Below, in pieces: positions 15 to 27,642 of a DNA stretch of 40,066 nt (within the stretch, counting starts at the first letter, position 1; the number at the start of each line of letters is the position of its first letter). Made by a program: the position numbers and the translations under genes. Below the pieces are notes generated by a model. That model was not told where the DNA came from, did not search any database, and was given only the letters and a program-made list of their open reading frames with translations. The stretch comes from a virus. The DNA is taken from positions 1 to 40,066 of the IMG/VR virus record IMGVR_UViG_3300042691_032366. One strand, given 5' to 3'.

Positions 15-31
15 TTGGCATGATTTTTGCT
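15..31 (+). promoter_or_regulatory. Candidate sigma-54 (-24/-12) promoter
   Basis: The stretch reads TTGGCATGATTTTTGCT. It fits the sigma-54 consensus YTGGCACG-N4-TTGCW with one change (C to T at base 21). The GG at 17-18 and the GC at 29-30 are separated by exactly ten bases, the invariant spacing. A transcript would start near base 42 and run directly into the tandem hairpins. No enhancer-binding-protein gene is in view, and one match in 40 kb could be chance, so this is a candidate only. Confidence 0.42.
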
Positions 32-41
32 TGAAATATTC

Positions 42-104
42 TAGGCTGTTTCCCCACGTTAGGGGGGTTGGCGTCATTCCCCACGTTAGGGGGGTTTTTT
101 TGTT
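42..104 (+). ncRNA. Candidate short structured RNA made of two identical hairpins
   Basis: If the sigma-54-like element fires, the RNA would start near 42 and contain two copies of a C4-(ACGTTA)-G4 hairpin, at 52-67 and 79-94. The second copy is followed by TTTTTTT at 95-101, giving an intrinsic terminator shape. No convincing ORF lies inside. A small RNA of about 60 bases is an inference from promoter, hairpin pair and T tract; protein-binding DNA repeats are the main alternative. Confidence 0.28.
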
Positions 105-271: not shown

Positions 272-496
272 TCAAATAGTAGTCTCCGTTTCGTTATTTT
301 TAACTAATGGTCTACGACCTCGTGGCTTAACAATACTTAATTTTCGTCTTTGGCGCCTAACCATACCCACAGTAATTACTCTTGATCCGTCTATCTTATT
401 CAAGTATTGAGCAATTTCTTCGTCTTTCATAGTTTTGGCATTATTTGCCACAAACTCCAACTCTTCTTTTGTCCACTTTTTATATGTTTTTGACAT
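272..496 (-). CDS. Small helix-turn-helix DNA-binding protein with AT-hook
   Basis: A 74-residue basic protein and the only leftward gene in the window. Residues 8-53 look like a SANT/Myb or homeodomain-like helical bundle: KKWTKEELEF opens it, DEEIAQYLNK forms the middle helix, and VGMVRRQRRKL is the likely recognition helix. Residues 57-63 (KPRGRRP) match the AT-hook core P-R-G-R-P with one inserted R. Such proteins bind AT-rich DNA. A clear Shine-Dalgarno (AAGGAGAC, minus strand, 508-501) lies just upstream of the ATG, and a terminator follows. The gene diverges from the packaging operon, and its leader abuts the rightward promoter at 511-538, so a role as repressor or autoregulator of that promoter is a reasonable inference. 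The exact family was not established. Confidence 0.75.
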   Translation of the reverse strand: MSKTYKKWTKEELEFVANNAKTMKDEEIAQYLNKIDGSRVITVGMVRRQRRKLSIVKPRGRRPLVKNNETETTI

Positions 497-576: not shown

Positions 577-744
577 ATGAAAAACCCCCATAATTTAATT
601 TCTTCCACATTAAAAACTGTAGCTTGTGATAATATAGTTAGTGAATATGAACTAACCCAAGCTAATGATAAAAACCTACAGGATATATTAAATGAGCAAA
701 ACAAAAAAGATAAAGAAAGAGACGAAGAGCAAACTACCCAATAA
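577..744 (+). CDS. Small hypothetical protein (55 aa), first ORF of the rightward operon
   Basis: An ATG at 577 opens 55 codons ending at TAA 742-744. An AAGG lies eight bases upstream (565-568), and a good promoter lies about 30 bases before that. The product begins MKNPHNLISS and its last third is strongly charged (NEQNKKDKERDEEQTTQ), probably helical or disordered. It overlaps the next gene by 53 bases in another frame, an unusually long overlap, although neighbouring genes here also overlap by up to 17 bases. I do not recognise a family. Promoter and ribosome site argue for a real gene; the length and overlap argue for caution. Confidence 0.45.
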   Translation: MKNPHNLISSTLKTVACDNIVSEYELTQANDKNLQDILNEQNKKDKERDEEQTTQ

Positions 745-1333
745 TGTTAGCGAACAAGAATTTTTACAAGTTTGGGAAAAAATTAGTAAAAAATTAGGAT
801 ATAAATTTAAATTTGGATATCATAGTCACGAAGACATGAAGCAACAAGCAGCAATATTCGCCCTAGAAGGTTTAAAAAATTATGATAATAGTCGCCCACT
901 AGAAAATTTTTTATGGACCCATGTTAGAAATAGGTTGTTTAATTACAAAAGAGACAATTATCAAAGACCAGACAAACCATGTTTAACATGTCCTCTTTAT
1001 AATAGTAAAGATAAAATTTGTACAGAATTTACGAATACTATGGACTGTTCATTATACGAAGGATGGGTTAAAAGAAATGATGCTAAAAAAAATATAATGA
1101 AACCAGTAAATATGGAAAGTATAGTACATACTCCAAACGAATTATCTTATGAAAATTTATTTGAAAGTATCAGCAATAAAGAAATTTTAAATATTATAGA
1201 TAACAATATTAGCATTAAAAATCGCCCCATATTTCTTAAAATTAAAGGTGGTAGCAAAGTATTAAAAAGCGATATGAAAAAACTTCTTAACGAAATTAAA
1301 AAAATCTTAAAAAATCATGACATCCAATTCTAA
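692..1333 (+). CDS. Sigma-70-region-2-like protein with inserted Cys4 zinc motif
   Basis: A 213-residue protein. Residues 45-90 resemble sigma-70 region 2, the part that binds core RNA polymerase and the -10 element: a helix with FALEGLKNYDNSRPLENF is followed by LWTHVRNRLFNYKRD, the pattern seen in ECF and phage late sigma factors. Directly after this lies a likely zinc finger with Cys97, Cys100, Cys110 and Cys119 (C-x2-C-x9-C-x8-C). The C-terminal 50 residues are basic and helical and could hold a degenerate region 4. The gene has an AGGA ribosome site eight bases upstream and overlaps the next gene by 17 bases. By position, a late-transcription sigma factor analogous to T4 gp55 is the best guess. 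A packaging-related DNA-binding role is the alternative. Confidence 0.55.
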   Translation: MSKTKKIKKETKSKLPNNVSEQEFLQVWEKISKKLGYKFKFGYHSHEDMKQQAAIFALEGLKNYDNSRPLENFLWTHVRNRLFNYKRDNYQRPDKPCLTCPLYNSKDKICTEFTNTMDCSLYEGWVKRNDAKKNIMKPVNMESIVHTPNELSYENLFESISNKEILNIIDNNISIKNRPIFLKIKGGSKVLKSDMKKLLNEIKKILKNHDIQF

Positions 1334-4923: not shown

Positions 4924-7122
4924 ATGACCAAAAAATATCCAAAAAGCGATGCTATAGCTGATGCTGCGCTAGAAAACCAAGAAGCATATGTTACATGGGG
5001 AGAAGATCTTCAAAGTAAACAGGATGCTCTTAAACAATCATCAGAATGCTTGAATGAATATGGCCTATATAAGGCAACCTCAGCATACAGAGGAAGAACA
5101 AATGACTATAGTAATCTTTTACCAAATGTAAGTGGTAAACCAGGATTAACTCGTGGTGGATATGATTATTTCCGACCAGGAGAAGCAGTTCCTACACAAA
5201 TTAAAGAAATTATAGACAGAGCAGAAGAGATATATCAAAAAGTTGGATTAGTTAAAAATGTTATTGATCTAATGGCAGACTTCGCTGTACAAGGAATAAA
5301 ACCAGTATGTAAAAATAAAAGAACAGAAAGATTTTATCGTAAATGGTTCAAAAAAGTCAAAGGCAAAGACAGAAGTGAAAGATTCTTAAATAATTTATAT
5401 AAAACAGCAAATATAGTAATTAATAGACAAACAGCTAAAATTAGTTTAAAAACAGCAGAAGATTTTTTTAGAGCCACATCGACAGCAGATACTACAGAAC
5501 AAGACGAAGACAATATACCTGTAGATAAAAGAGAAATTCCTTGGAGATATACATTTATAGATCCTGTTTATGTTAATGTTGCGGCAGGGTCTTTATCTTC
5601 ATTTGTTGGTAAAAAACGATATGAATTATTAATACCGTCATCATTAAGAAAAATTATTAATAGTCCCAAAACAGATAATGAAAAATTAATTGTTTCATCA
5701 TTACCAGAACAAATAGTATTAGCGGCTAAAAATAAAAAACCCTATCCATTAGATCCAGAAAAAACCTTAGTATTTCATTATAAAAAAGACGATTGGCAGA
5801 GCTGGGCATACCCAATGATTTATAGCATCATGGATGATATAACAGTAATAGAGAAACTTAAATTAGCTGATATGTCAGCCTTAGATGGTGCCATTAGTAA
5901 TATTCGTATTTTTAAACTTGGTAGTCTTGAGCATAAAATTGCCCCAACAAAAGCCGCTGCTAGTAAATTATCTGGAATATTACAAAATAATGTGGGAGGA
6001 GGAACTTTGGATCTTGTGTGGGGTCCAGATATCGAGTTAATTGAAAGCAATACAAATGTTCATCAATTTTTAGGTGAAGCAAAATATATTCCACACTTAA
6101 ATAGTGTTTATGCTGGACTAGGAATTCCTCCAACTCTTACAGGAACTTTTGGAGCAGCAGGAACTACGAATAATTTTATTAGCCTTAAAACATTAACTCA
6201 AAGATTGCAATACGGAAGAGATATGCTTGTCTCTTTTTGGGAAAAAGAATTCGAACTTGTACAAAAAGCTATGGGTTTTAAATATGCAGCAAAAGTAGAA
6301 TTTGACAGAATGGATTTAAGTAATGAAGATGCCGAAAAGGCATTACTTATACAACTTGCTGATAGAAATCTTATTAGTGATGAACTTATACAAAGCAGAT
6401 TTGGTTTTGATCCGGAGATGGAAAAAATTAGACTTAATAGAGAAAATAAAGACAGAGCAGCCGAACGGATGGTTCCAAAAGCTGGTCCTTGGTATGATCC
6501 TATGTTCGAAGAATCATTGTTAAAAACTGCACTACAAATTGGACTTGCTACCCCGAGTCAAGTTGGTCTAGAATTGCAAAAGAAAAAGGCTGGAGAAAAG
6601 ACAGTTTTAGAAATGAAAACTCCATCAGGTCCTTTTGGTAATCCTGTTGGTGTTAAAGATTCGCCAGAATCTTTAAAAGGTCAACCAGAACAAGGAAGAC
6701 CCAAGAATTCGAAAGATTCTAATAAAAGAAAAACAAAAAAATTTAGTCCACAAATTGGAGCAAAACTTCAACTTTGGGCAGATAATGCTCAAGACAATAT
6801 TACAGATATATTAAATCCAATATTATTAGATTTCTATCAAAAGAAAAATATGAGAAGTTTATCTAATGATCAATATGCCGAGGCAGAAGCAATTAAAACC
6901 AAACTGCTTCTTTCTGCACAACCATATAAGCCTATAGATCAATCATTTATTTCGTCTGGTTTAAAATTATTAAATAATAATACTAGTATTAATAAAATAT
7001 ATAATTATTATCAAATATTTTTAAATAATATGAAACACACTTTCTCTAGGGAGTTATCTGTACAAGAACTAAAACAACTTAAGTCGTATTTTTACTCTAT
7101 GGTGTATGACAACTTAACCTAA
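4924..7122 (+). CDS. Portal protein
   Basis: A 732-residue portal, the dodecameric ring at the capsid vertex through which DNA enters and to which the neck attaches. Recognisable stretches are the N-terminal helical wing (IDRAEEIYQKVGLVKNVIDL), the aromatic strand around YTFIDPVYVNV, and the stem-to-crown region beginning GIPPTLTGTFGAAGTTNNF, followed by a long helix (QRLQYGRDMLVSFWEKEF). The last 150 residues are lysine-, asparagine- and glutamine-rich and helical. It lies directly after the terminase, as usual. No Shine-Dalgarno can be seen before the ATG; the 45-base gap is almost pure A/T and includes a TATAAT at 4893-4898 without a good -35 box. The stop codon overlaps the next annotated ATG by one base. 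Confidence 0.88.
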   Translation: MTKKYPKSDAIADAALENQEAYVTWGEDLQSKQDALKQSSECLNEYGLYKATSAYRGRTNDYSNLLPNVSGKPGLTRGGYDYFRPGEAVPTQIKEIIDRAEEIYQKVGLVKNVIDLMADFAVQGIKPVCKNKRTERFYRKWFKKVKGKDRSERFLNNLYKTANIVINRQTAKISLKTAEDFFRATSTADTTEQDEDNIPVDKREIPWRYTFIDPVYVNVAAGSLSSFVGKKRYELLIPSSLRKIINSPKTDNEKLIVSSLPEQIVLAAKNKKPYPLDPEKTLVFHYKKDDWQSWAYPMIYSIMDDITVIEKLKLADMSALDGAISNIRIFKLGSLEHKIAPTKAAASKLSGILQNNVGGGTLDLVWGPDIELIESNTNVHQFLGEAKYIPHLNSVYAGLGIPPTLTGTFGAAGTTNNFISLKTLTQRLQYGRDMLVSFWEKEFELVQKAMGFKYAAKVEFDRMDLSNEDAEKALLIQLADRNLISDELIQSRFGFDPEMEKIRLNRENKDRAAERMVPKAGPWYDPMFEESLLKTALQIGLATPSQVGLELQKKKAGEKTVLEMKTPSGPFGNPVGVKDSPESLKGQPEQGRPKNSKDSNKRKTKKFSPQIGAKLQLWADNAQDNITDILNPILLDFYQKKNMRSLSNDQYAEAEAIKTKLLLSAQPYKPIDQSFISSGLKLLNNNTSINKIYNYYQIFLNNMKHTFSRELSVQELKQLKSYFYSMVYDNLT

Positions 7123-7133
7123 TGGAATATAAT

Positions 7134-8597
7134 ATGATTATATATAACCAAGAAAAATTAGATGGATTAGAACAAGCTATTGCTTCACAACAATTTATAT
7201 CTGTAGCATCTATTGCTTCTCCAATTTCAGAAAACAATCAAAAAGTTGTTGCTAAAAACTTAAAATCATTAGCTTCTTATGATGATTCTGATCTTTATTA
7301 TGTACAATCTATTTTAGTTACATCATCTTGGAATAAAAATGATGATATATTTGATAAAGCAGAAGTGTGGGCAGCAAAAAATACTCCAGAAGATAAGCCA
7401 ACAAACTTAGAACATGATGAAAACACTATTATTGGCCATATAGTATCAAATTGGTCAATTACTGACGATGGAATTCTTATTGACGATTCCACACCTATAG
7501 AAAATTTGCCAGAAAAATTCCATATTGTAACAGGTTCTGTTATCTATAAAGCTTATGTTAATCCAGAATTAAAAGAAAGAACATCAAAATTAATAGCAGA
7601 AATAGAAAATGGATCAAAATATGTAAGTATGGAATGTATGTTTAAGGGTTTTGATTATGGATTAATCGACGAAAACACTGGCGAATATAAGATCTTATCA
7701 AGATCTAATGATACTGCTTTTCTAACAAAACACTTAAGAGCATACGGAGGAAGTGGCAAATACGAAAACCATAAACTAGGAAGAGTACTAAGACAGATCA
7801 CATTCTCTGGTAAAGGATATGTTGACAAACCAGCTAATCCAGATAGTATAATATTTAGTAAAGAAAATTTTATGAATATTGAAAATATAAAAAATACTGA
7901 AAAAAGTTTTTCAGGTGTATCAGAAATAAGTACAAATCCAATGGAGACTAATAATATGAGTTTAGAAAAAGAAATAGCCGAAATTAAAGAAAAAGTAGAA
8001 GCCATGAAAGATTGTGCTTCAGCAACTCAAGAGGCATATGCTCAAGTTAGTGAGCTTAAAGATAAACTAGTTGCTTTAGAAACAGAATTATCACAAACTA
8101 AAACTGCTTACGACGAACTCGTTTCTTCAACAGAAGCAGCTAAAAAAATGAGTGAAGAAGAAATGATGAAGAAAGAAGAAGAAATGAAAAAGGCTAAATC
8201 TGATTTAGATGAGGCTTTGGCAGCTGTAGCTGCATATAAGATGAAAGAAGAAGAAATGATGAAGAAAGAAAAGAAAATGAAAAGAATGGCAAGTCTTTTA
8301 GAAAAAGGACTAGACCAAGAAACTGCTTCATCCGCTGTCGATAATTTCGAATCACTAGAAGATAATGCTTTTGATGCTATGGTAGCACTAATCAGTAATG
8401 CTGCTAAAAAAATGTCACCAAAAAGCAAAGAAAACAACACAGTAAAAGCTGAAGAAGCTCTTGATAGTGTTGAATCTGAAACTGAACTTGATCTTAGTGC
8501 TGGTGAAGACAACACAGATAGTGTTGACTCAACTCGTGCAGCATTAGTAGATTTTGTATGCGCTAGACTAGGTAAAAAACTTAATAAGGGAGAATAA
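7134..8597 (+). CDS. Prohead maturation protease with C-terminal scaffold domain
   Basis: I place the start at 7134 rather than the in-frame ATG at 7122, because GGAATATA lies just ahead of 7134 while 7122 has no ribosome site; the product is then 487 residues. Numbered from 7122, residues about 55-245 form a prohead protease: the His98 region (NLEHDENTIIGHI) and the Ser169 strand (KYVSMECMF) are the likely catalytic pair. Residues 280-410 are a charged coiled coil with the twice-repeated EEEMMKKE, typical of scaffold. The last 60 residues are acidic. The protease would cleave scaffold and capsid proteins after shell assembly. A second start inside the gene gives the scaffold alone. Portal, protease, decoration and capsid order is standard. 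Confidence 0.82.
   Translation: MIIYNQEKLDGLEQAIASQQFISVASIASPISENNQKVVAKNLKSLASYDDSDLYYVQSILVTSSWNKNDDIFDKAEVWAAKNTPEDKPTNLEHDENTIIGHIVSNWSITDDGILIDDSTPIENLPEKFHIVTGSVIYKAYVNPELKERTSKLIAEIENGSKYVSMECMFKGFDYGLIDENTGEYKILSRSNDTAFLTKHLRAYGGSGKYENHKLGRVLRQITFSGKGYVDKPANPDSIIFSKENFMNIENIKNTEKSFSGVSEISTNPMETNNMSLEKEIAEIKEKVEAMKDCASATQEAYAQVSELKDKLVALETELSQTKTAYDELVSSTEAAKKMSEEEMMKKEEEMKKAKSDLDEALAAVAAYKMKEEEMMKKEKKMKRMASLLEKGLDQETASSAVDNFESLEDNAFDAMVALISNAAKKMSPKSKENNTVKAEEALDSVESETELDLSAGEDNTDSVDSTRAALVDFVCARLGKKLNKGE
7956..8597 (+). CDS. Nested scaffold protein (internal in-frame start)
   Basis: An ATG at 7956, codon 279 counted from 7122, is in frame with the protease and is preceded by GGAGACTAATAAT. 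This is nearly the ribosome-binding cassette that precedes the decoration and capsid genes (GGGAGAATAATAAT). Translation from here yields 213 residues, starting MSLEKEIAEIKEK, and made only of the coiled-coil and acidic tail, which is what a free scaffold looks like. Lambda C/Nu3 and herpesvirus assemblin genes use the same nested design, with an excess of scaffold made from the inner start. Expression is inferred from the ribosome site and the exact domain boundary. An alternative ATG at 7941 lies before the Shine-Dalgarno and is not favoured. Confidence 0.65.
   Translation: MSLEKEIAEIKEKVEAMKDCASATQEAYAQVSELKDKLVALETELSQTKTAYDELVSSTEAAKKMSEEEMMKKEEEMKKAKSDLDEALAAVAAYKMKEEEMMKKEKKMKRMASLLEKGLDQETASSAVDNFESLEDNAFDAMVALISNAAKKMSPKSKENNTVKAEEALDSVESETELDLSAGEDNTDSVDSTRAALVDFVCARLGKKLNKGE
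8154..8270 (+). repeat. 24-base direct repeat in the scaffold coding region
   Basis: The same 24 bases occur at 8154-8177 and 8247-8270, 93 bases apart and in frame, both encoding EEEMMKKE. They duplicate a heptad-like segment of the scaffold coiled coil and suggest a recent internal duplication. Confidence 0.8.
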
Positions 8598-17439: not shown

Positions 17440-20400
17440 ATGGCAGCATTTAATCTTACAGCAGAACTAAATTTAAGAGGCCCATCTAATATTAACCAGG
17501 TTGTTGGCAATATTAGAAGACAATTATCTACTCTTACTTTAGATTTAAATATTAATCCTAATACTTCTAGAGGTGTTCAGGCTGTTACTGCAAATATTAG
17601 AACGTTGAGCACCGCATTAAGAGATGCTCAGAGCAATGCGGCGGCTTTATCTACCACATTATCTAATTTAGTTACCACTATCAATAACGCTGGTAATGCG
17701 GCTGCTAATGCTGGTAATGCCTTAAATAGATTAAATACTCAAACAAGAGCCGCTCAAGCTGCTGCTAGAGATGGAGCAACAGCAATGGAGAACTTTGGTG
17801 CTCAATCTGCTCTTGCTATTCGTAGATTTGCCGCTTTTAGTGTTGCTACTGGAGCAGTTTATTCATTTACTCGTGCCTTATCATCAGCATATTCAGAATT
17901 TATTAATTTTAATAAAGAATTTGTTAGATTACAACAGGTTACCAACTCATCTGCTTCCGGTCTTGCTGGATTATCACAAGAAATCACCAGACTATCTACT
18001 GGTCTTGGCGTTAGTTCATCAGAACTATTAACAGTATCATCAACTTTAGCACAGGCTGGCTTATCGGCTAATCAAACTAAAACAGCACTAGAAGCATTGG
18101 CAAAATCCGCTCTTGCCCCATCTTTTGATAACTTAAATGAAACAGTAGAAGGTAGTATTGCTTTAATGAGACAGTTTGGATTAAGCGCTGGTGACTTAGA
18201 ATCAGCGTTAGGGTCGATTAACGCGGTCGCTGCTAAATTTGCTGTAGAATCCAGTGATATTATTACTGCTATTCAGCGTACTGGTGGTGTTTTTGCTTCG
18301 GCTAGTAAAGGAGTAAGTCAAGGCAAAGATGCTCTTAATGAATTTATTGCTGTATTTACAAGTGTTCGTGCTACTACTCGTGAAAGCGCAGAAACTATCG
18401 CTACTGGCCTGCGAACAATCTTTACTCGTATTCAACGAGGAAATACAATACAAGCATTAAAAGAGTATGGTATTACATTAACAGATTTAGAAGGCAAGTT
18501 CGTTGGACCATATGAGGCTGTTCGTAGACTTAGTGAAGGCTTAAGAGGATTAGATCCTAGAGACTTAAGATTTAGTGAAATTGTTGAAGAACTTGGTGGA
18601 TTTAGACAAATTGGTAAAGTTATTCCATTAATTCAACAATTTGCTACAGCACAACAAGCATTAAGTGTTGCTCAAAGAGGAGCAGGATCATTAGCAGGAG
18701 ATGCTGCCAAAGCACAAGAATCATTAGCTATTAGAGTAAATAAAGTAAGAGAAGAATTTATTGCATTAATTAGAGATATTGGACAAACACAAAGTTTTCA
18801 AAAGTTCGTTGATATATCTTTACAACTAGCTAGCGCATTAATTTCAGTAGCATCTGCTGCGAAAGATGTTTTGCCTGCTATAACTGCTATAGCAGCGATT
18901 AGAGCGGTTCCAGCAATAGCACAATTTGCTGGAGGATTTGGTCGTGGAATAACAAGAAGGAATGAAGGTGGTCCTATTAGAAAATTTGCTACTGGAGGCC
19001 TGGTTCCTGGTAGTGGCAATAGAGATACTGTTCCTGCGATGTTAACCCCAGGAGAATTTGTTATTAGGAAAAAGGCTGTTGAAACAATTGGAGCTAGTAA
19101 TTTAGCCAGGATGAATGTTGGTGGCAAAGTTCAAAAATTTGAAGATGGTGGATATGTAGAAGGTTCAGCGTTAAGAGCATTAAAACAATTAACCAGAGAT
19201 TTCTTAATGCCAAAATCAAGAAAAGGAGGAAGAAGAAAAATATCTTTTGTGGGCCAACAAGCAGTTTCTATATCCAAAAATATTTCACCAGAACTATTAA
19301 AACAAATAGAAGAAGAAGGAAGACTTGTTTATGGTACCGGCTTAGGCGCCTTAGCAAAAGGCGATCCTGGATTAATAGTAGATAAAATTATTAATGTTGC
19401 TTTAGCTAAAACACAAAAACAAAAAGAAGGAAGACTTAAAAAAACACAAGGAGCCTTAACATTTAGTGCTGCCGGATTACAACGTGGTCCGCGAGCACCA
19501 AAAGGACAAATGGAAAAGGCATTAGTCAGATATCAGCAAGATCCAGAATATCGTAAAGCTATGGGCCTAGGAGCTTCAGGAGATGTTCTTCAAGCATTAT
19601 CAGCATTTAGAAAAAGCGGAGGACAAACTAGTTTAGCTGGTGTTTTTTCTGAAGAAGCTATATCAAAAATTGAATCAGGAATACCTCGATATATAGCCGC
19701 ATTAGGAAATGAACCACAAAAAATAGCAAAAGCAAAAACAGCTCAACAATATCTTAGATCTTTTGCTGGAGGAGCTACTGCTAGTAAGGCCGGACATGCA
19801 ACAGCATTTAGTGAAACCATTAATCAGATGTTAAAGTCTGGTATAATTCAAGAGTTTGCTGATGGGGGTTTTGTTCAAAAATTTGCTCAAAAACAACCGA
19901 AATATAATTCTGGATTAGTTAAGTCGGTTCAAAAAGCTGGTAGTTTTGAAAATTTAATTAATCAAAATATGGTAGACAGTAACGGTAATTATAATTTTGG
20001 TTTAGTTTCTCTAAGATCTGGTACAAAAACTGGTAGTAGAACAGAAACTCGTCCTATTGAGGGCACTGATAAAATAGCTCGTATTAATGTTGGTGTTCTA
20101 TCTGATGTGAATAACTTTAATAAACAGATTGAAAAAGATATAACTAGTAAATTAAAAGAATCTATTTTTAATACTGGCAAAATGTTATCTGGTAAATTAA
20201 GAGGTAGTAGTAAAATCAGTCTTAGTAGTACTAAACAGGCTTTAGGAGGAGCTACTCTTAGTAGTGCAACCGGAAGTATATTCGAAGCAGCACTACAAAT
20301 GGTTGGTGCTCCTTATGTAGATAAAATCGAATCTATTAAATCTATGGATTTTCCATTTGGATTAGGACCAGCAGCTCCATTATTTGGCGCGGGTTTTCCA

Positions 20401-23400
20401 CAGCAAGTTCCTACTGATGCTACTAGAACTATTGGAGGAAGTGGCAAAGGAATATCTGATTTTATGGAACAAGTTAGTAGATTTGTTAAAGCTACAGAAA
20501 CAGGTAAGTTTACAAAATCGCTTGGATCTCCCATTGGTACTCCATCAAGTCTAATATCCTCTAGACTTATATCTCAAATTAAAACACCAGCTCAAATTGA
20601 AAAAGTAAATGAAATTTTAAGACGATTTCAAATACCTAATTTTAGAATTGGTGATCTTTCTGATCCTAAAAAACTATCCAAGTATGAGAGTATTTTAAAT
20701 AAATCACTACAAAGAAATCCTAATGCTATTCAAGCTTTAGAGGTTGAACAGTTCGCTACAGGAGGTTCTGTACAAGATACTGTACCAGCTCTTTTAACTC
20801 CTGGTGAATTTGTAATAAATAAAACAGCGGCACAAAGAATAGGATATAGTCAACTTAATAGATTAAATAAGGCAGATAAAGTACAGGGATTTAATAAAGG
20901 AGGCGCTGTTGGTAACATACAAAATTTTGCGAATGGTGGTATGGTTCAGTCATTTTTTATTGGAGGAGCAGTACAGGCTGGATCACAAATTATTCGACAA
21001 TTACCACAGTTAGCAACAGCGATAGCTCAGGCAGTTAGAATATTGCCAAGAAATTTACCGCAAGGAAATGGGTGGTTAGCGTCTAATACTGGCACAAGAG
21101 CTATGGGATTACCTCAAAGTAGAGGAGGAATGTTGAGAAACTTATTATCAGATCCTATGTCATTAGTATTTGGTTCTGGCTTACTAGGAGAGGGTATAAG
21201 TGGGGTTATAGGAGGTAAAAGAGGAGAAGCGGCTGGATCTGCATTTGCTGGAGGTGCTGGAGTAGCTGGCGTTGTTGCTAGTATTGTTGGAGTAACAACG
21301 CCGTTTGGATTATTGGCAACAGCAACCACTGGATTAATAGCTGGTTTTAATGCGTATAATAAATCTATTAGAGATTCTAATATAGCAGAAAATAATAAAA
21401 AGGTTGAGGATTCTTCTGAAAGATTATCTCAAACATTAGATAAACTATCTCAATCCGGAAAGATTACGTCTACTTCTCTAGACTCAATAAGAACAGAAAT
21501 TGGATCTATTATATCCGCTCAACAGGAGAATATTAGAAGTAGAACAGAAGAGGCTCAGCCAGGAATAATGTCAAATATCACTGAGGCTTTATACAATATA
21601 GGAACTACTTTTGGATTAGCTCCATCTTCTGGAGCTGGTAGAATTGATAGAGGAGCATTAAGTCAAAATTTATTTAGCGAAAGTAAAACTGGGGCCGAAC
21701 AAATTGCTCAAACCTTTTCTACTCTTATGCAAAGAGGAATGACATTTAACCAAATTTCTGCTAAACTAGATACAGGAGCTAAGGTTGAGATACCAGGATT
21801 AAGAGATATTCTTGGAGAAGAAAGAACTCCACAAATATCAGAGCTGAGTAGATCTCTTGCTATTGCGCAAAGAGGCACGCAAATTACAGATCTAGAGGCT
21901 AAGCTTGCAGATTTGATAGAAAGTCGTAATAGTTTAGCGTCTTTTGATCCTGGAAGAGAAGTTTTTGATATCAGAATCAAAGAAACTGCTCAAGCCTATG
22001 CGTTAGCTATTAATGCATCTAATGCTGAACTTCAAAGACAACAACAAGAATTAAATAATGTACAAAAAGCAACAGCTGTGGTCGTATCAAGATTAAATCT
22101 TTTTGCTGAAGCAATGAAAAATGTTGATGCTGCTACTATTAGAGCTTCCTCTGAATTTGAAGAAGCTCAAAGACAAATTGATGTTGGTGTTGGCTCCAGA
22201 TTAGGAGGTCGTGCGACTATTGCTCAACCAAGCAGAATGAATGAGGCGGTATTAGAAAATCTTAGAGCATATTCTCCAGAAGAAATTAGTAGAACTATTA
22301 GTCAATTTGGTCAAAATCTTAATTTAAATCCTGAGTTTACGAAAAGAGCACAAGGAGCAGCATTATCACAAAGAGTATTACAAACAGATTTACCAAAAAT
22401 ATTAAATAGCATAGCAGCAGAAGAAAGAGATGCAAACTTTGGAGACACTAGTAGAGCAAATACAATAAGAAATCAATTAAAAGAGGCATTAAAGGCAGGA
22501 GGTGTTACTGATACTACAGAAATAGATCGTGTTATTGAAGACGTTATTACTAATATAGAGAAACTTGGTAAGGGCGAAATTACATTTGATACTATCGCAG
22601 CTAATAGCGAAACTTTTGCTAAATTATTTAAAACTAATTCTGAGGCCCTTCAAGCTTATTCAAATGTTGTAAAATCTGCTAATAATATATTTGCAAATTT
22701 TGTTTCTAAAATAAATGAATATTCTAATGCTATAGAACAATCTATTAACACTCAACTACAAGCTAATCAAATTAGAGCTGGTGGAGATATACAACTTAGA
22801 GAAGCATTAGGACAAAGGGTTTCTCTAAATGAACGTAATCAATTATTTAATAATGAAATATTAGGAATGACAGCAACTATTGGGGCTGGTAACAGACCAA
22901 TTGCTGGTACTGGAACTACCGACCCTAATGAAATAGCCAGAAGATTAGCGGCTGCCGAGCAAAGAAAAAGAGAGTTAGAAGCTCAATCAACAACCGGCGG
23001 GCCACAAAAATTTGCTAGTGAATTATCTCAAGTTACAATACAGATTAATCAATATGAAAACGCTCTTAAAAAGTTAGCTAATGATACTAATAGAGCGGCC
23101 AATGCTTTAAATGAAATTAGTAGATTAAGACAACTTAGAGAGACCAGAAGAGAATCATTCTTAGATTTTGCTAGTAATCTTAATGATCCAGAATACATGA
23201 CCAACTTTATGCAACAAGCAGCATCATTAAGCGCTGTGATGTCTGGTCGTGGTACTATGGATGATATTAGATCTGCTAGAGAAGGATTCCAAAGACGAGT
23301 ATCAGCAGGATTTGTTAGTCAAGATCAATTGCAAATAGAAAGTACACAACTTACTCAACAGATTGTGGCTATCTTGGAAAGAGCTATGGGTGGACCACTA

Positions 23401-26400
23401 CCACAAGGATTAAGAGAACAAATAGCATCAGATTTTGGAACTCTTCCAGAAGAGCAAAATGCTATTAAAGAATATAAAGATGCCACAGAGGCTCAAGCGC
23501 GAGCTACTGAAATTATGGGAATAAGAATGCAAGAAGGAGCAAATTATCTATTTACTAAGGTTAGAGAAGCTGGAGATTTATGGGTTGCTGCTGTACGACT
23601 ATCTGCTAATCAAGCAGCAGCACAAATGGCGGCTCCTCCTGGCGCGCCAGTTCAACAAGCAGGAGCAAAAGCTAAGGGAGGATTAATATACGCTAATGAA
23701 GGACAATATATAGATTTTCAACCAAAAGGCACTGATACTGTGCCTGCAATGTTAACTCCCGGAGAATTTGTGGTCAATGCTAAGGCTACTAAAAAGAATC
23801 TTGGATTATTAAAACAAATTAATTCTAGTGGTAAAGCTAGCGGATTTAGTAAGGGCGGTGTGGTTTATTTGGCTGATGGTGGACAAGTAGAAGCAATAGA
23901 AAGAGATAGAAGACAATATAGTCTGAATATACAAAGTTTGAAAGCACAAAGAGATTCTCTTGGTTATTTGGGTGTTGATGGACAATTTGTGTGGAATGCA
24001 CAATCAGGAGCATCAAAAGAATTTGCCGAAAAAAGATATAATGAAATTGAAACAGAAATACAAAAGGCAGAACAAGAATTAGCTAATTTTAATAATAAGT
24101 ACCCAGAAACTCCAAAACCACCAGCACAACAACAAGCAGAACAACAGAGACAGCAAGCTCAACAACAACAACAACAACAAGTTCCACTTTCTCCTAAGCA
24201 AAAAGCTCAACAAGAAAAAGAACGCCGTAAGCAAGCTGTATTAGATGAAAAAGAACGTCGTAAACAAGCTGCTATGGCTAATAATCCTGGATATGCTGCT
24301 AGAGTAGGGAGAGAACAAGCTAAACAACAAAAAGAACAGATGGAGGCGGTACAAAGATTTCCTGATCTTGATCCAAAAGATGCTATAAAAGAATATAGGA
24401 AAGAAAAAAGAGCTAGAGTGCAAGAAATGAACGAAAGATATGGACGTTCTGTATCTATATTTACGTCCTCTAATAATAGACAAACAGATGATGTTAAAAT
24501 AGAAGAATCAATAGGACCAATTTTATCTCAAACAGAAGTAGAAGCTATAGAACGTAAAACTTATGGAGGATTAACAAAGGCAGAGTATGATAATCAAAGA
24601 AAGCAAGAGGAAGAAGCTAGACGAGCTAGACTTGATGAAATACAAGCTTCTGTAGCCTCCACAGAAACACCTGAAGCTAAACTAGAAGAACAGAGAAGAA
24701 ATAAAATAATAGCTGATTATGAAGCTCAACAAAAGATAGATAAAGAAAAAAGAAACAAAAGTATAGCTGAAAGACAAGCCAGGGATGCCGAAGCTAGAAA
24801 TAGAGGATTTAGAGATGCTGCACAAGAAGCTGGTGTTAAAGCCAAAGAAAAAGCTGAGGCTAAAATAGCAGAACAACGAGCAACAGATAAAGAAAAAAGA
24901 GCAGCTGATAAAGCTAGCATAGAAGCAGGAACAAATGCTGGTGTTTCTAAAACACAAAGAATACAAGAATTATTAGCCACAGATCCTGCTTATGAAAATC
25001 AAAGAAAAGATTTTGCTTTAACTGAATATATTAAAACAAGAATACAAGAAAAATATTCAGATGATTTAACAGATAAAAAAGACCCAGCTAGAGATCGTGC
25101 AAATTTAGAAAGACTAATATCTGATGCTACTGCTGATTATAATGCTAAACGAAGACAACTACAAGAACAAGCTAATGTAAGTAAAGAAAAATTTGCAAAC
25201 CAAAATGTACAGATAGGTCTTCAACAATTTCAAGAAGGAGTTGATAAGAGTCCATTAGTAGCTGCTGGCACCGCTATACCAAAAGCTGGATACGGAGTAA
25301 TTAGGGCCGGTGTTGGCTATACTGTAGCAGGAGCGATGGCATTAAAAAATCTTAATCCAGCCAATAGACCAGAGGATATAGCTTTTAATAATGAAATTAT
25401 TAATTCAGCAATGGCCCAGGGAGAAGCGGGATTACAAACAATACTAGCTACTGGTGCTGATCTTGGATATAAATTAGGATTAGATAATTTAGACCTAATT
25501 ACTACACCCGAAGCATATGGTATGGGGCCTGCTGGGGCTGGTTTGCGTCCAAGAATGACCATGATGGAAGAATCTGATAAACAACCTTCCAATATAGAAG
25601 CATCAACAGAACCATCTAGAGGATTGTTTGATAAACAAGGACGAGGAGATGCTCAGGCTAGAGCCGCAATTGCTAATTTTATAGCTAGTGGTCCACGCAC
25701 ATCAGCTTATGCTGGAATTGTAGGAGATGCATCGACAACACCCTCTGCTATAATACAACCTAAAAGAAATAAAACACCAGGAGCCTATCAAGCAACAGCA
25801 GAAATGGCCAGAGCTAGAATTAATCAAATTAATGAACAAGAAGCTAATAAAGCAAGAGGGGCATACTCTACAGAAGCTATCAAACAAAACAAAACTATAA
25901 GAGCTTTTGAAGAATCGGTCATTGGTCAAACGCTAGGGCTTTCTCCGGGTTCACTTGGAGAATTAGTAACGGCAGAAAACGTACAACGAGGAGCAACAAA
26001 TATTGCTCAAGTTGCTGGTGAAGGAGCTATTGATGCTTTTGGTGGCGCTAGCTCATTGGTAAAAAGTGGAGAAGCAGCTGTTGCTAAAGGATTAACACGA
26101 GCAGCTAGTGCTACTAATAGAGGCATAGAGAGAGTTGGTGGTAAACTAGTAGATATTGCTGAAGCTGGAATAGAATCTGCTCGCACCAACGCCCCATTAT
26201 TACCTCAATTACCGCTACCAAAAATTGGTTCAAAAATCACAGAAGCTTTAAAAGCAAGACGAGTTGCTAGAGAAACTAGAAGAGGACAAGGAGCTCTTAC
26301 TAGAGAAGCTTTAGAAACAGCAGAAAAAAATGCAAATTTAGCCGAGGCCAATAGAAGAATTAGTATAATTCCTATGGAAGATATACAGAGTGATATTGCG

Positions 26401-27642
26401 CAACGAGTTACTAGAGGATACGAAAGTAGTCAAAGATTAGCTGATATGGGATTACCACCGTTAGATTTTAGCAATAAATCATTAGCTCAGATAGCAAGAG
26501 AGACTTCTGAAAATATAACTCCAGAAAATTTACCTACAACAATCCGTAATTTTTCTAAAAAAACCGGAACAACAAAGCAAGCAGAAACAGCAAGCAAAGC
26601 ATACGAAATGTCTTCACGAGAAGAATTCTTAAGAAGACAAGCAGAAATACAAGCTAGAAAACAAGCAATAACTCAAAGCGACAAATCATCTGGTTCATTA
26701 TCAACACCATTGAATCAACCAGAATCTATAATACCAAATGTAATCTCACAACCAACTCCTACAGCCGCAACATTATCTACTTCCGAATCAATATTAATGG
26801 CCAAAGTAGCAAGAGCCAAAGAATTATCACGAGCTGGACTGTCTGGATTATCACCATCTGAACAAGAAATTTTCCAAAAACTTATGAGGGATCCAGATGT
26901 ATTACAAGCTCTAAATCCTAGAAAAGTACAAAATAGATCTTTAGGTGGATTAATCTATGCGAGCAAGGGAACGCTAGTTCCATACCAACCACGAGGCACC
27001 GACACTGTACCAGCCATGCTAACTCCTGGCGAATTTGTGGTCAATAAAGCAGCAACTCAAAGAAACTTGCCATTATTAAAAGCTATTAATAATAATAGTC
27101 AATATATGAGTAGGGGTGGAAAAGTAAGTTATTTTGCTGATGGAGGACAAGCATCTGGAAGCATGGGCGCTGGCGGTGTATCTTCATTTAGCTTAGATTC
27201 ATCAGCATTTTCTGATGCTGTTGGAACATTTGGAACATCAGTTTCTGAACTTAAAACTGTGCTTGGTAATTTTGGAGACGGAGCAGGAACTTTAGCAAAA
27301 AGCGCTACTGATTTAGCATCTGCTTTTGGTGGCATAAGCACATCAGCAGGAGCATTATCAGCAGCAGCATCAATACTACAAGGAGCAACACAAGGTTTAG
27401 CATCACCAATAGCAGCGTTTACATCATCTATAGACAGAATATCCTCTACATTAAATAATATGAAAGATATTAATGTAAATATTACTGGTTCTATTCCTCC
27501 TATAAGTATTGTGGTTGAAGTTAATGGTGGGGATGGATTAAAGGATGAATTAAAGCCATTTGCTGATGAAATTTACAATAAGATTGGTCAACGCTTGGCA
27601 CAAGCTACAAACGGCCTATTTAAAATAGAAACAACTAGTTAA
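17440..27642 (+). CDS. Giant tape measure protein (3,400 aa)
   Basis: This very long protein sets tail length. Residues about 130-420 hold a TP901-type tape measure core (SELLTVSSTLAQAGLS, FDNLNETVEGSIALMRQFGLS, TIATGLRTIFTRIQRGN). Hydrophobic stretches lie at about 460-500, 1246-1300 and 2603-2640 and may act in membrane passage. Four copies of the motif DTVPAMLTPGEFV (near residues 529, 1113, 2097 and 3186) are each set among glycine-rich ADGG or ATGG signals. A Q-rich, highly charged helical region spans about 2190-2560, with a seven-glutamine run at 2241-2247. The 140 C-terminal residues are a Ser/Ala/Gly-rich region ending in beta strands. At 0.15 nm per residue, a tail of about 510 nm is predicted. 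No frameshift or stop was found. AAGGA precedes the ATG. Confidence 0.93.
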   Translation: MAAFNLTAELNLRGPSNINQVVGNIRRQLSTLTLDLNINPNTSRGVQAVTANIRTLSTALRDAQSNAAALSTTLSNLVTTINNAGNAAANAGNALNRLNTQTRAAQAAARDGATAMENFGAQSALAIRRFAAFSVATGAVYSFTRALSSAYSEFINFNKEFVRLQQVTNSSASGLAGLSQEITRLSTGLGVSSSELLTVSSTLAQAGLSANQTKTALEALAKSALAPSFDNLNETVEGSIALMRQFGLSAGDLESALGSINAVAAKFAVESSDIITAIQRTGGVFASASKGVSQGKDALNEFIAVFTSVRATTRESAETIATGLRTIFTRIQRGNTIQALKEYGITLTDLEGKFVGPYEAVRRLSEGLRGLDPRDLRFSEIVEELGGFRQIGKVIPLIQQFATAQQALSVAQRGAGSLAGDAAKAQESLAIRVNKVREEFIALIRDIGQTQSFQKFVDISLQLASALISVASAAKDVLPAITAIAAIRAVPAIAQFAGGFGRGITRRNEGGPIRKFATGGLVPGSGNRDTVPAMLTPGEFVIRKKAVETIGASNLARMNVGGKVQKFEDGGYVEGSALRALKQLTRDFLMPKSRKGGRRKISFVGQQAVSISKNISPELLKQIEEEGRLVYGTGLGALAKGDPGLIVDKIINVALAKTQKQKEGRLKKTQGALTFSAAGLQRGPRAPKGQMEKALVRYQQDPEYRKAMGLGASGDVLQALSAFRKSGGQTSLAGVFSEEAISKIESGIPRYIAALGNEPQKIAKAKTAQQYLRSFAGGATASKAGHATAFSETINQMLKSGIIQEFADGGFVQKFAQKQPKYNSGLVKSVQKAGSFENLINQNMVDSNGNYNFGLVSLRSGTKTGSRTETRPIEGTDKIARINVGVLSDVNNFNKQIEKDITSKLKESIFNTGKMLSGKLRGSSKISLSSTKQALGGATLSSATGSIFEAALQMVGAPYVDKIESIKSMDFPFGLGPAAPLFGAGFPQQVPTDATRTIGGSGKGISDFMEQVSRFVKATETGKFTKSLGSPIGTPSSLISSRLISQIKTPAQIEKVNEILRRFQIPNFRIGDLSDPKKLSKYESILNKSLQRNPNAIQALEVEQFATGGSVQDTVPALLTPGEFVINKTAAQRIGYSQLNRLNKADKVQGFNKGGAVGNIQNFANGGMVQSFFIGGAVQAGSQIIRQLPQLATAIAQAVRILPRNLPQGNGWLASNTGTRAMGLPQSRGGMLRNLLSDPMSLVFGSGLLGEGISGVIGGKRGEAAGSAFAGGAGVAGVVASIVGVTTPFGLLATATTGLIAGFNAYNKSIRDSNIAENNKKVEDSSERLSQTLDKLSQSGKITSTSLDSIRTEIGSIISAQQENIRSRTEEAQPGIMSNITEALYNIGTTFGLAPSSGAGRIDRGALSQNLFSESKTGAEQIAQTFSTLMQRGMTFNQISAKLDTGAKVEIPGLRDILGEERTPQISELSRSLAIAQRGTQITDLEAKLADLIESRNSLASFDPGREVFDIRIKETAQAYALAINASNAELQRQQQELNNVQKATAVVVSRLNLFAEAMKNVDAATIRASSEFEEAQRQIDVGVGSRLGGRATIAQPSRMNEAVLENLRAYSPEEISRTISQFGQNLNLNPEFTKRAQGAALSQRVLQTDLPKILNSIAAEERDANFGDTSRANTIRNQLKEALKAGGVTDTTEIDRVIEDVITNIEKLGKGEITFDTIAANSETFAKLFKTNSEALQAYSNVVKSANNIFANFVSKINEYSNAIEQSINTQLQANQIRAGGDIQLREALGQRVSLNERNQLFNNEILGMTATIGAGNRPIAGTGTTDPNEIARRLAAAEQRKRELEAQSTTGGPQKFASELSQVTIQINQYENALKKLANDTNRAANALNEISRLRQLRETRRESFLDFASNLNDPEYMTNFMQQAASLSAVMSGRGTMDDIRSAREGFQRRVSAGFVSQDQLQIESTQLTQQIVAILERAMGGPLPQGLREQIASDFGTLPEEQNAIKEYKDATEAQARATEIMGIRMQEGANYLFTKVREAGDLWVAAVRLSANQAAAQMAAPPGAPVQQAGAKAKGGLIYANEGQYIDFQPKGTDTVPAMLTPGEFVVNAKATKKNLGLLKQINSSGKASGFSKGGVVYLADGGQVEAIERDRRQYSLNIQSLKAQRDSLGYLGVDGQFVWNAQSGASKEFAEKRYNEIETEIQKAEQELANFNNKYPETPKPPAQQQAEQQRQQAQQQQQQQVPLSPKQKAQQEKERRKQAVLDEKERRKQAAMANNPGYAARVGREQAKQQKEQMEAVQRFPDLDPKDAIKEYRKEKRARVQEMNERYGRSVSIFTSSNNRQTDDVKIEESIGPILSQTEVEAIERKTYGGLTKAEYDNQRKQEEEARRARLDEIQASVASTETPEAKLEEQRRNKIIADYEAQQKIDKEKRNKSIAERQARDAEARNRGFRDAAQEAGVKAKEKAEAKIAEQRATDKEKRAADKASIEAGTNAGVSKTQRIQELLATDPAYENQRKDFALTEYIKTRIQEKYSDDLTDKKDPARDRANLERLISDATADYNAKRRQLQEQANVSKEKFANQNVQIGLQQFQEGVDKSPLVAAGTAIPKAGYGVIRAGVGYTVAGAMALKNLNPANRPEDIAFNNEIINSAMAQGEAGLQTILATGADLGYKLGLDNLDLITTPEAYGMGPAGAGLRPRMTMMEESDKQPSNIEASTEPSRGLFDKQGRGDAQARAAIANFIASGPRTSAYAGIVGDASTTPSAIIQPKRNKTPGAYQATAEMARARINQINEQEANKARGAYSTEAIKQNKTIRAFEESVIGQTLGLSPGSLGELVTAENVQRGATNIAQVAGEGAIDAFGGASSLVKSGEAAVAKGLTRAASATNRGIERVGGKLVDIAEAGIESARTNAPLLPQLPLPKIGSKITEALKARRVARETRRGQGALTREALETAEKNANLAEANRRISIIPMEDIQSDIAQRVTRGYESSQRLADMGLPPLDFSNKSLAQIARETSENITPENLPTTIRNFSKKTGTTKQAETASKAYEMSSREEFLRRQAEIQARKQAITQSDKSSGSLSTPLNQPESIIPNVISQPTPTAATLSTSESILMAKVARAKELSRAGLSGLSPSEQEIFQKLMRDPDVLQALNPRKVQNRSLGGLIYASKGTLVPYQPRGTDTVPAMLTPGEFVVNKAATQRNLPLLKAINNNSQYMSRGGKVSYFADGGQASGSMGAGGVSSFSLDSSAFSDAVGTFGTSVSELKTVLGNFGDGAGTLAKSATDLASAFGGISTSAGALSAAASILQGATQGLASPIAAFTSSIDRISSTLNNMKDINVNITGSIPPISIVVEVNGGDGLKDELKPFADEIYNKIGQRLAQATNGLFKIETTS

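Follow-up and report, generated by a model that had tools for sequence, protein, structure and literature searches.

The closest described counterparts of the locus analysed here are the PeSLs, the promoter-early stem-loop elements described for T4-type phages (Arbiol, 2010, and Comeau, 2014, both cited in PMC4503421). As far as PeSLs are presented in that citing source, the likeness lies in units of a promoter and a stem-loop that are repeated between small phage genes, with near-identical units standing beside unrelated genes, as is seen here in the related phage L244. On the same second-hand account, the present locus differs in having a sigma-54-type promoter, which usually faces away from the next gene, in the several unrelated classes of palindrome that follow it, mostly without a T run, and in its carriers, which form an uncultured phage clade. 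The parallel with PeSLs, in the form in which they are summarised there, concerns the repetition between dissimilar neighbours in L244; the window holds one copy.

Bacterial sigma-54 (-24/-12) promoters provide another point of reference. The locus resembles them in consensus, spacing and predicted start, but the sites studied here form arrays in phage genomes that carry no sigma-54 gene, and an activator site could not be recognised for them. Phages are usually seen using the housekeeping sigma factor of their host or a sigma factor of their own, and searches of the literature covered, which took in a minority of subscription papers, turned up no description of phages with arrays of sigma-54 promoters. 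Small RNAs are also known from such promoters in bacteria, CrcZ being a sigma-54-dependent example. GlmY, another bacterial small RNA, has been described as a sigma-54 target (PMC4591121). If the site in the window is transcribed, it would share with GlmY and CrcZ a short non-coding transcript made from a -24/-12 promoter; unlike them, however, the predicted window RNA has no conserved loop or binding motif, and it is not conserved as an RNA.

An initial annotation had interpreted the locus as a sigma-54-like promoter feeding a small RNA composed of two identical hairpins. The promoter half of this interpretation is well supported by the spacing, clustering and gene-proximal position of related sites, whereas the tandem-hairpin RNA is not.

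A predicted sigma-54-type promoter at the edge of the window

The window, by which we mean the whole stretch of 40,066 nucleotides that was analysed, is a linear 40-kb virus record whose structural genes include one for a tape measure of 3400 aa; it also has a terminase. The features discussed below lie at its left end:

1 to 5, no strand assigned: TCACC, the last five bases of the dyad GGNGAAA-YTTCNCC, the remainder lying beyond the end of the record
15 to 31, plus strand: predicted sigma-54-type -24/-12 promoter, TTGGCATGATTTTTGCT, based on 0 mismatches and on spacing and logo in relatives
42, plus strand: predicted transcription start, by the rule of PMC4591121
50 to 103, plus strand: 27-nt tandem duplication bearing both hairpins (50 to 76 and 77 to 103), present as a single copy in L187, L133 and L174
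52 to 65, plus strand: hairpin 1, CCCC-ACGTTA-GGGG, based on a 14-mer match and the predicted fold
79 to 92, plus strand: hairpin 2, again CCCC-ACGTTA-GGGG, with a T run behind it at 95 to 101; terminator-like by fold and terminator scan
90 to 187, no strand assigned: conserved element, non-coding and nearly constant in length, which starts with GGGGGTTTTT at base 90 and closes with GGCCAGTTTA at base 187, based on 43 distinct loci
272 to 496, minus strand: small gene of 74 aa, conserved beside the element, with a weak match to a transcription-regulator family
692 to 1333, plus strand: sigma-factor-like gene (weak phrog_1740 match), which opens the gene block that runs up to the terminase

The sequence at 15–31 is TTGGCATGATTTTTGCT, and its core at 16–31 matches the sigma-54 consensus TGGCAYRNNNNTTGCW with 0 mismatches. 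The fit to this consensus and its exact spacing had been recognised correctly in the initial annotation; the single substitution that was reported with them is not there. The perfect match to TGGCAYRNNNNTTGCW at 16–31 is unique within the window, and chance alone would give about 0.05 perfect sites per window of the same composition, counting both strands. Both in the window and in its relatives, TGGCAY at -24 and TTGCW at -12 are held at an invariant spacing, as is characteristic of sigma-54 promoters. According to the rule derived from sigma-54 ChIP-seq in E. coli, by which transcription starts 19 bp past the centre of the motif (PMC4591121), the predicted start falls on base 42, in agreement with the start near 42 that had been proposed earlier.

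Because the window begins just 14 bases before the motif, the upstream flank was judged from the relatives alone. The search for an upstream activator site revealed, in many of them, the dyad GGNGAAA-YTTCNCC, whose end lies at a fixed 9 or 11 bp upstream of the -24 box, nearer than usual enhancers. The whole dyad is visible in L187, L133, L174, L004, L082 and L130.

Distribution of the sites among related phages

Relatives were gathered with the protein encoded at 7122–8594, which yielded 80 related loci from viral contigs. Spacing was evaluated in 649 kb of non-redundant relative sequence, selected by a structural protein and independently of the motif. In this set, TTGGCAY and TTGCW separated by N5 gave 36 matches, compared with 0–4 at each of 15 other spacings (from 0 to 15), and the logo of the aligned sites in relatives is TTTGGCAYRRNRTTTGCW. 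A control with the reversed pattern gave 0 matches across 33 larger records. Between 1 and 13 sites occur in 20 of the 23 large relatives, mostly grouped within a few kb and between small genes; several large relatives have just one site or none.

Orientation and context were assessed on 184 distinct sites. A gene start diverges behind the site in 110 of them, a sigma-70-like box lies ahead of it in 26, and a palindrome begins no more than 16 nt past it in 63. Eight sites were flagged by a nearby ATG ahead and no sigma-70 box, six of which have the ATG 32–36 nt past the motif and a purine-rich leader; judged by these sequence features, the six are apparently gene promoters. Those at 32–36 nt from an ATG are L062:2180 and L078:369 on the minus strand, and L237:6416, L248:3591 and L250:3153 and 4552 on the plus strand. 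A further ATG-facing site, with a longer leader, is found in L242, and site pairs that converge or overlap, an arrangement odd for promoters, occur in L025, L029 and L042.

Among 20 large relatives checked, no sigma-54 gene was found, so the sigma-54, and with it the activator, would be supplied by the host. A search for activator domains in 20 large relatives returned one match, which was weak.

Palindromes and cassette-like arrays

The short palindromes that often follow the sites belong to several unrelated classes and mostly have no T run. They include CTGCCATTTTGGCAG occurring twice, CGTAAG/CTTACG units and C4-G4 hairpins in varying number, and paired palindromes commonly have a GC-rich spacer between them. 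Predicted transcripts at the sites of relatives are more structured than downstream controls, with means of -13.6 and -8.8 kcal/mol, respectively. The first palindrome often starts 4–5 nt past the motif; from there it would straddle the start site and therefore would not lie wholly in the RNA. In the other viral contigs L123, L176, L120 and L163, a sigma-54-type site is followed by long C(n)G(n) runs, each some 10–25 bases in length.

One array, given as L244 and also as G025, comprises twelve units whose 150-nt surroundings average 80% identity. In G025 the twelve sites lie about 0.5–1.4 kb apart, all of them opposite in strand to most of the small genes, and the ten neighbouring proteins that were compared at this array have no mutual similarity. 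When the two strands of the 12 palindrome units in L244 were compared, the motif strand was slightly more structured, a difference that is not decisive. Positions 2080–12676 of L244 present twelve near-identical promoter/palindrome units among dissimilar small genes, in a cassette-like manner.

Because dozens of relatives carry such arrays, a spreading regulatory cassette is favoured over a dedicated two-loop small-RNA gene. Our leading explanation, to which we give about even confidence, is a promoter/palindrome regulatory cassette of the sigma-54 type that abuts a DNA element at the junction of early and late genes. The sequence at 15–31 would be one copy of an intergenic cassette, composed of a sigma-54-type site and palindromes, that has increased in copy number between small genes within a clade of large uncultured phages and usually faces away from the neighbouring small gene. 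Host sigma-54 RNA polymerase would be bound there, awaiting an enhancer-binding protein of the host, and firing would produce at most a short leader RNA running from base 42 into the C4/G4 hairpin and T tract. Such a leader would stop around base 100, where a conserved element of about 100 bp, located between two gene blocks, has its left edge. Its most likely use is the regulation or insulation of neighbouring transcription, rather than a trans-acting RNA, with the insulating role being a guess. What is observed directly is the motif with its spacing and repetition, the duplication and the conserved element, whereas use of sigma-54, the transcript and its end, and a regulatory role are inferred from them. 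A more tentative proposal is that the large-phage clade has spread mobile host-sigma-54 promoter/palindrome cassettes through its small-gene block, coupling control to the nitrogen or stress state of the host, with one copy placed against the conserved element, which may itself have a part in replication or packaging.

If true, sigma-54-type arrays across one clade would mean that these phages tie the control of their genes to the physiology of the host in an unusual way, and their hosts could be expected to retain sigma-54. Promoter/stem-loop cassettes that spread between unrelated genes of phages would then be known from a second case, one that can be tested in further genomes by sequence alone.

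Alternatively, the motif could serve not as a promoter but as the target of a DNA-binding protein of the phage, through which the small-gene cassettes are regulated or recombined; the resemblance to sigma-54 sites would then be coincidental. Such a protein would accommodate the convergent, tandem and back-to-back pairs, the frequent overlap of the first palindrome with the predicted start, and the fact that most sites have the sigma-70-type promoter of a small gene close by, at no constant distance. We nevertheless consider it unlikely, as the two asymmetric blocks, the exact N5 spacing and the tolerated bases all agree with the sigma-54 consensus, and certain sites have an ATG at the distance expected of a promoter. 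A sigma-54-type promoter is preferred because of the strict spacing, the fit at degenerate positions and the gene-proximal sites.

The conserved non-coding element

The element at 90–187 includes the G arm of hairpin 2 and the T tract behind it, lies beside the packaging genes, and has a nearly constant length across 43 distinct uncultured phage loci. Since both ends of this aligned set had been fixed by the way in which the sequences were picked, the length test was redone from the right end alone. In this test GGGGTTTT, which has a background frequency of about once per 22 kb overall, was found 96–101 nt before the end in 43 of 45 distinct right-end matches; in one of the two exceptions the run is interrupted by an A, and the other is seemingly unrelated. 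Some 27 nt inside the element vary freely, and exact matches to its core number at most one per genome searched. RNAalifold predicts no pair and no consensus structure in the downstream element, and a search there for RNA covariation found none. Even relatives in which no hairpin comes before them retain the G run and T tract, at a fixed distance from the conserved right-hand motif, so that the “U tract” is primarily a part of this element, whatever its effect as a terminator.

At the orthologous locus, within 200 bp, a perfect site in the same direction is present in 11 of 41 relatives and a site with one mismatch in seven, while five have only a near-consensus site in the opposite direction and 18 have none, allowing up to one mismatch. 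The site lies further upstream of the orthologous locus in L025 and L029. In G015 (100001–120000) and G013 (132001–152000), a small-gene block richer in GC (about 0.43 versus 0.33–0.37) adjoins the element.

An origin or packaging role for the conserved element itself is possible. It is rather improbable that the promoter and hairpin are parts of a cis-acting replication or packaging element, in which the short transcript primes replication or opens the element. The nearly fixed length of this single-copy element, its place beside the terminase genes and, in G015, its distance of about 1 kb from a switch of GC skew and coding strand would agree with such a function. In G013, however, the corresponding switch is 4–8 kb from the element, the skew tracks the coding strand, and the sigma-54-type site is missing or reversed at many element loci.

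The twin hairpins

CCCC-ACGTTA-GGGG occurs at 52–65 and again at 79–92, so that the two identical C4/G4 hairpins with an ACGUUA loop described in the initial annotation are present, as is the U tract after the second one (T run at 95–101). The predicted RNA from 42 folds into the two hairpins at -23.1 kcal/mol (z -2.1), and 8 of 200 shuffled sequences fold equally well. A terminator scan reports the second hairpin with its T run at 76–95, the combination of a GC-rich stem and trailing T residues that is expected at an intrinsic terminator.

The nearest relatives, L187, L133 and L174, have the promoter and leader in common with the window but a single hairpin, so the tandem pair is a duplication that took place in the lineage of the window. 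Hairpin loops differ between relatives, at least 24 of the 43 orthologous loci have a G run with no C arm before it, and consensus pairs are lacking downstream. The claim of an RNA made of tandem identical hairpins does not hold up against this variation, and neither does a conserved or covarying RNA structure in relatives. No match to the window reached the gathering score in Rfam, the weak matches being far under threshold; the exact twin-hairpin pattern had no match in viral contigs, and the promoter-plus-hairpin pattern none in genome contigs. The small-RNA reading is weakened by the duplication and by the variation among relatives, and in the leading explanation the two identical hairpins would have no separate role. 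It is very improbable that the locus makes a dedicated small non-coding RNA with exposed ACGUUA loops for binding RNA or protein of the host, since the intact promoter, two strong hairpins, terminator-like end and more structured predicted transcripts of relatives that speak for it are offset by a second hairpin that is a duplication, variable loops, a frequently missing C arm and no covarying structure.

Genomic context of the window

Searches for phage DNA similarity with the window returned chance matches only, the conserved protein at 1317–2150 had no match in the phage collection, and the terminase had only distant matches. As regards the host, the terminase led to two MAG contigs assigned to different phyla, probably misbinned phage, which were not used. 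In the window, the T4-type late promoter motif TATAAATA shows no clear tendency to precede genes. Rfam applied to relatives found one tRNA in six relatives. At 17440–27642 the window encodes the tape-measure-like protein of 3400 aa, and a very long tail is therefore expected.
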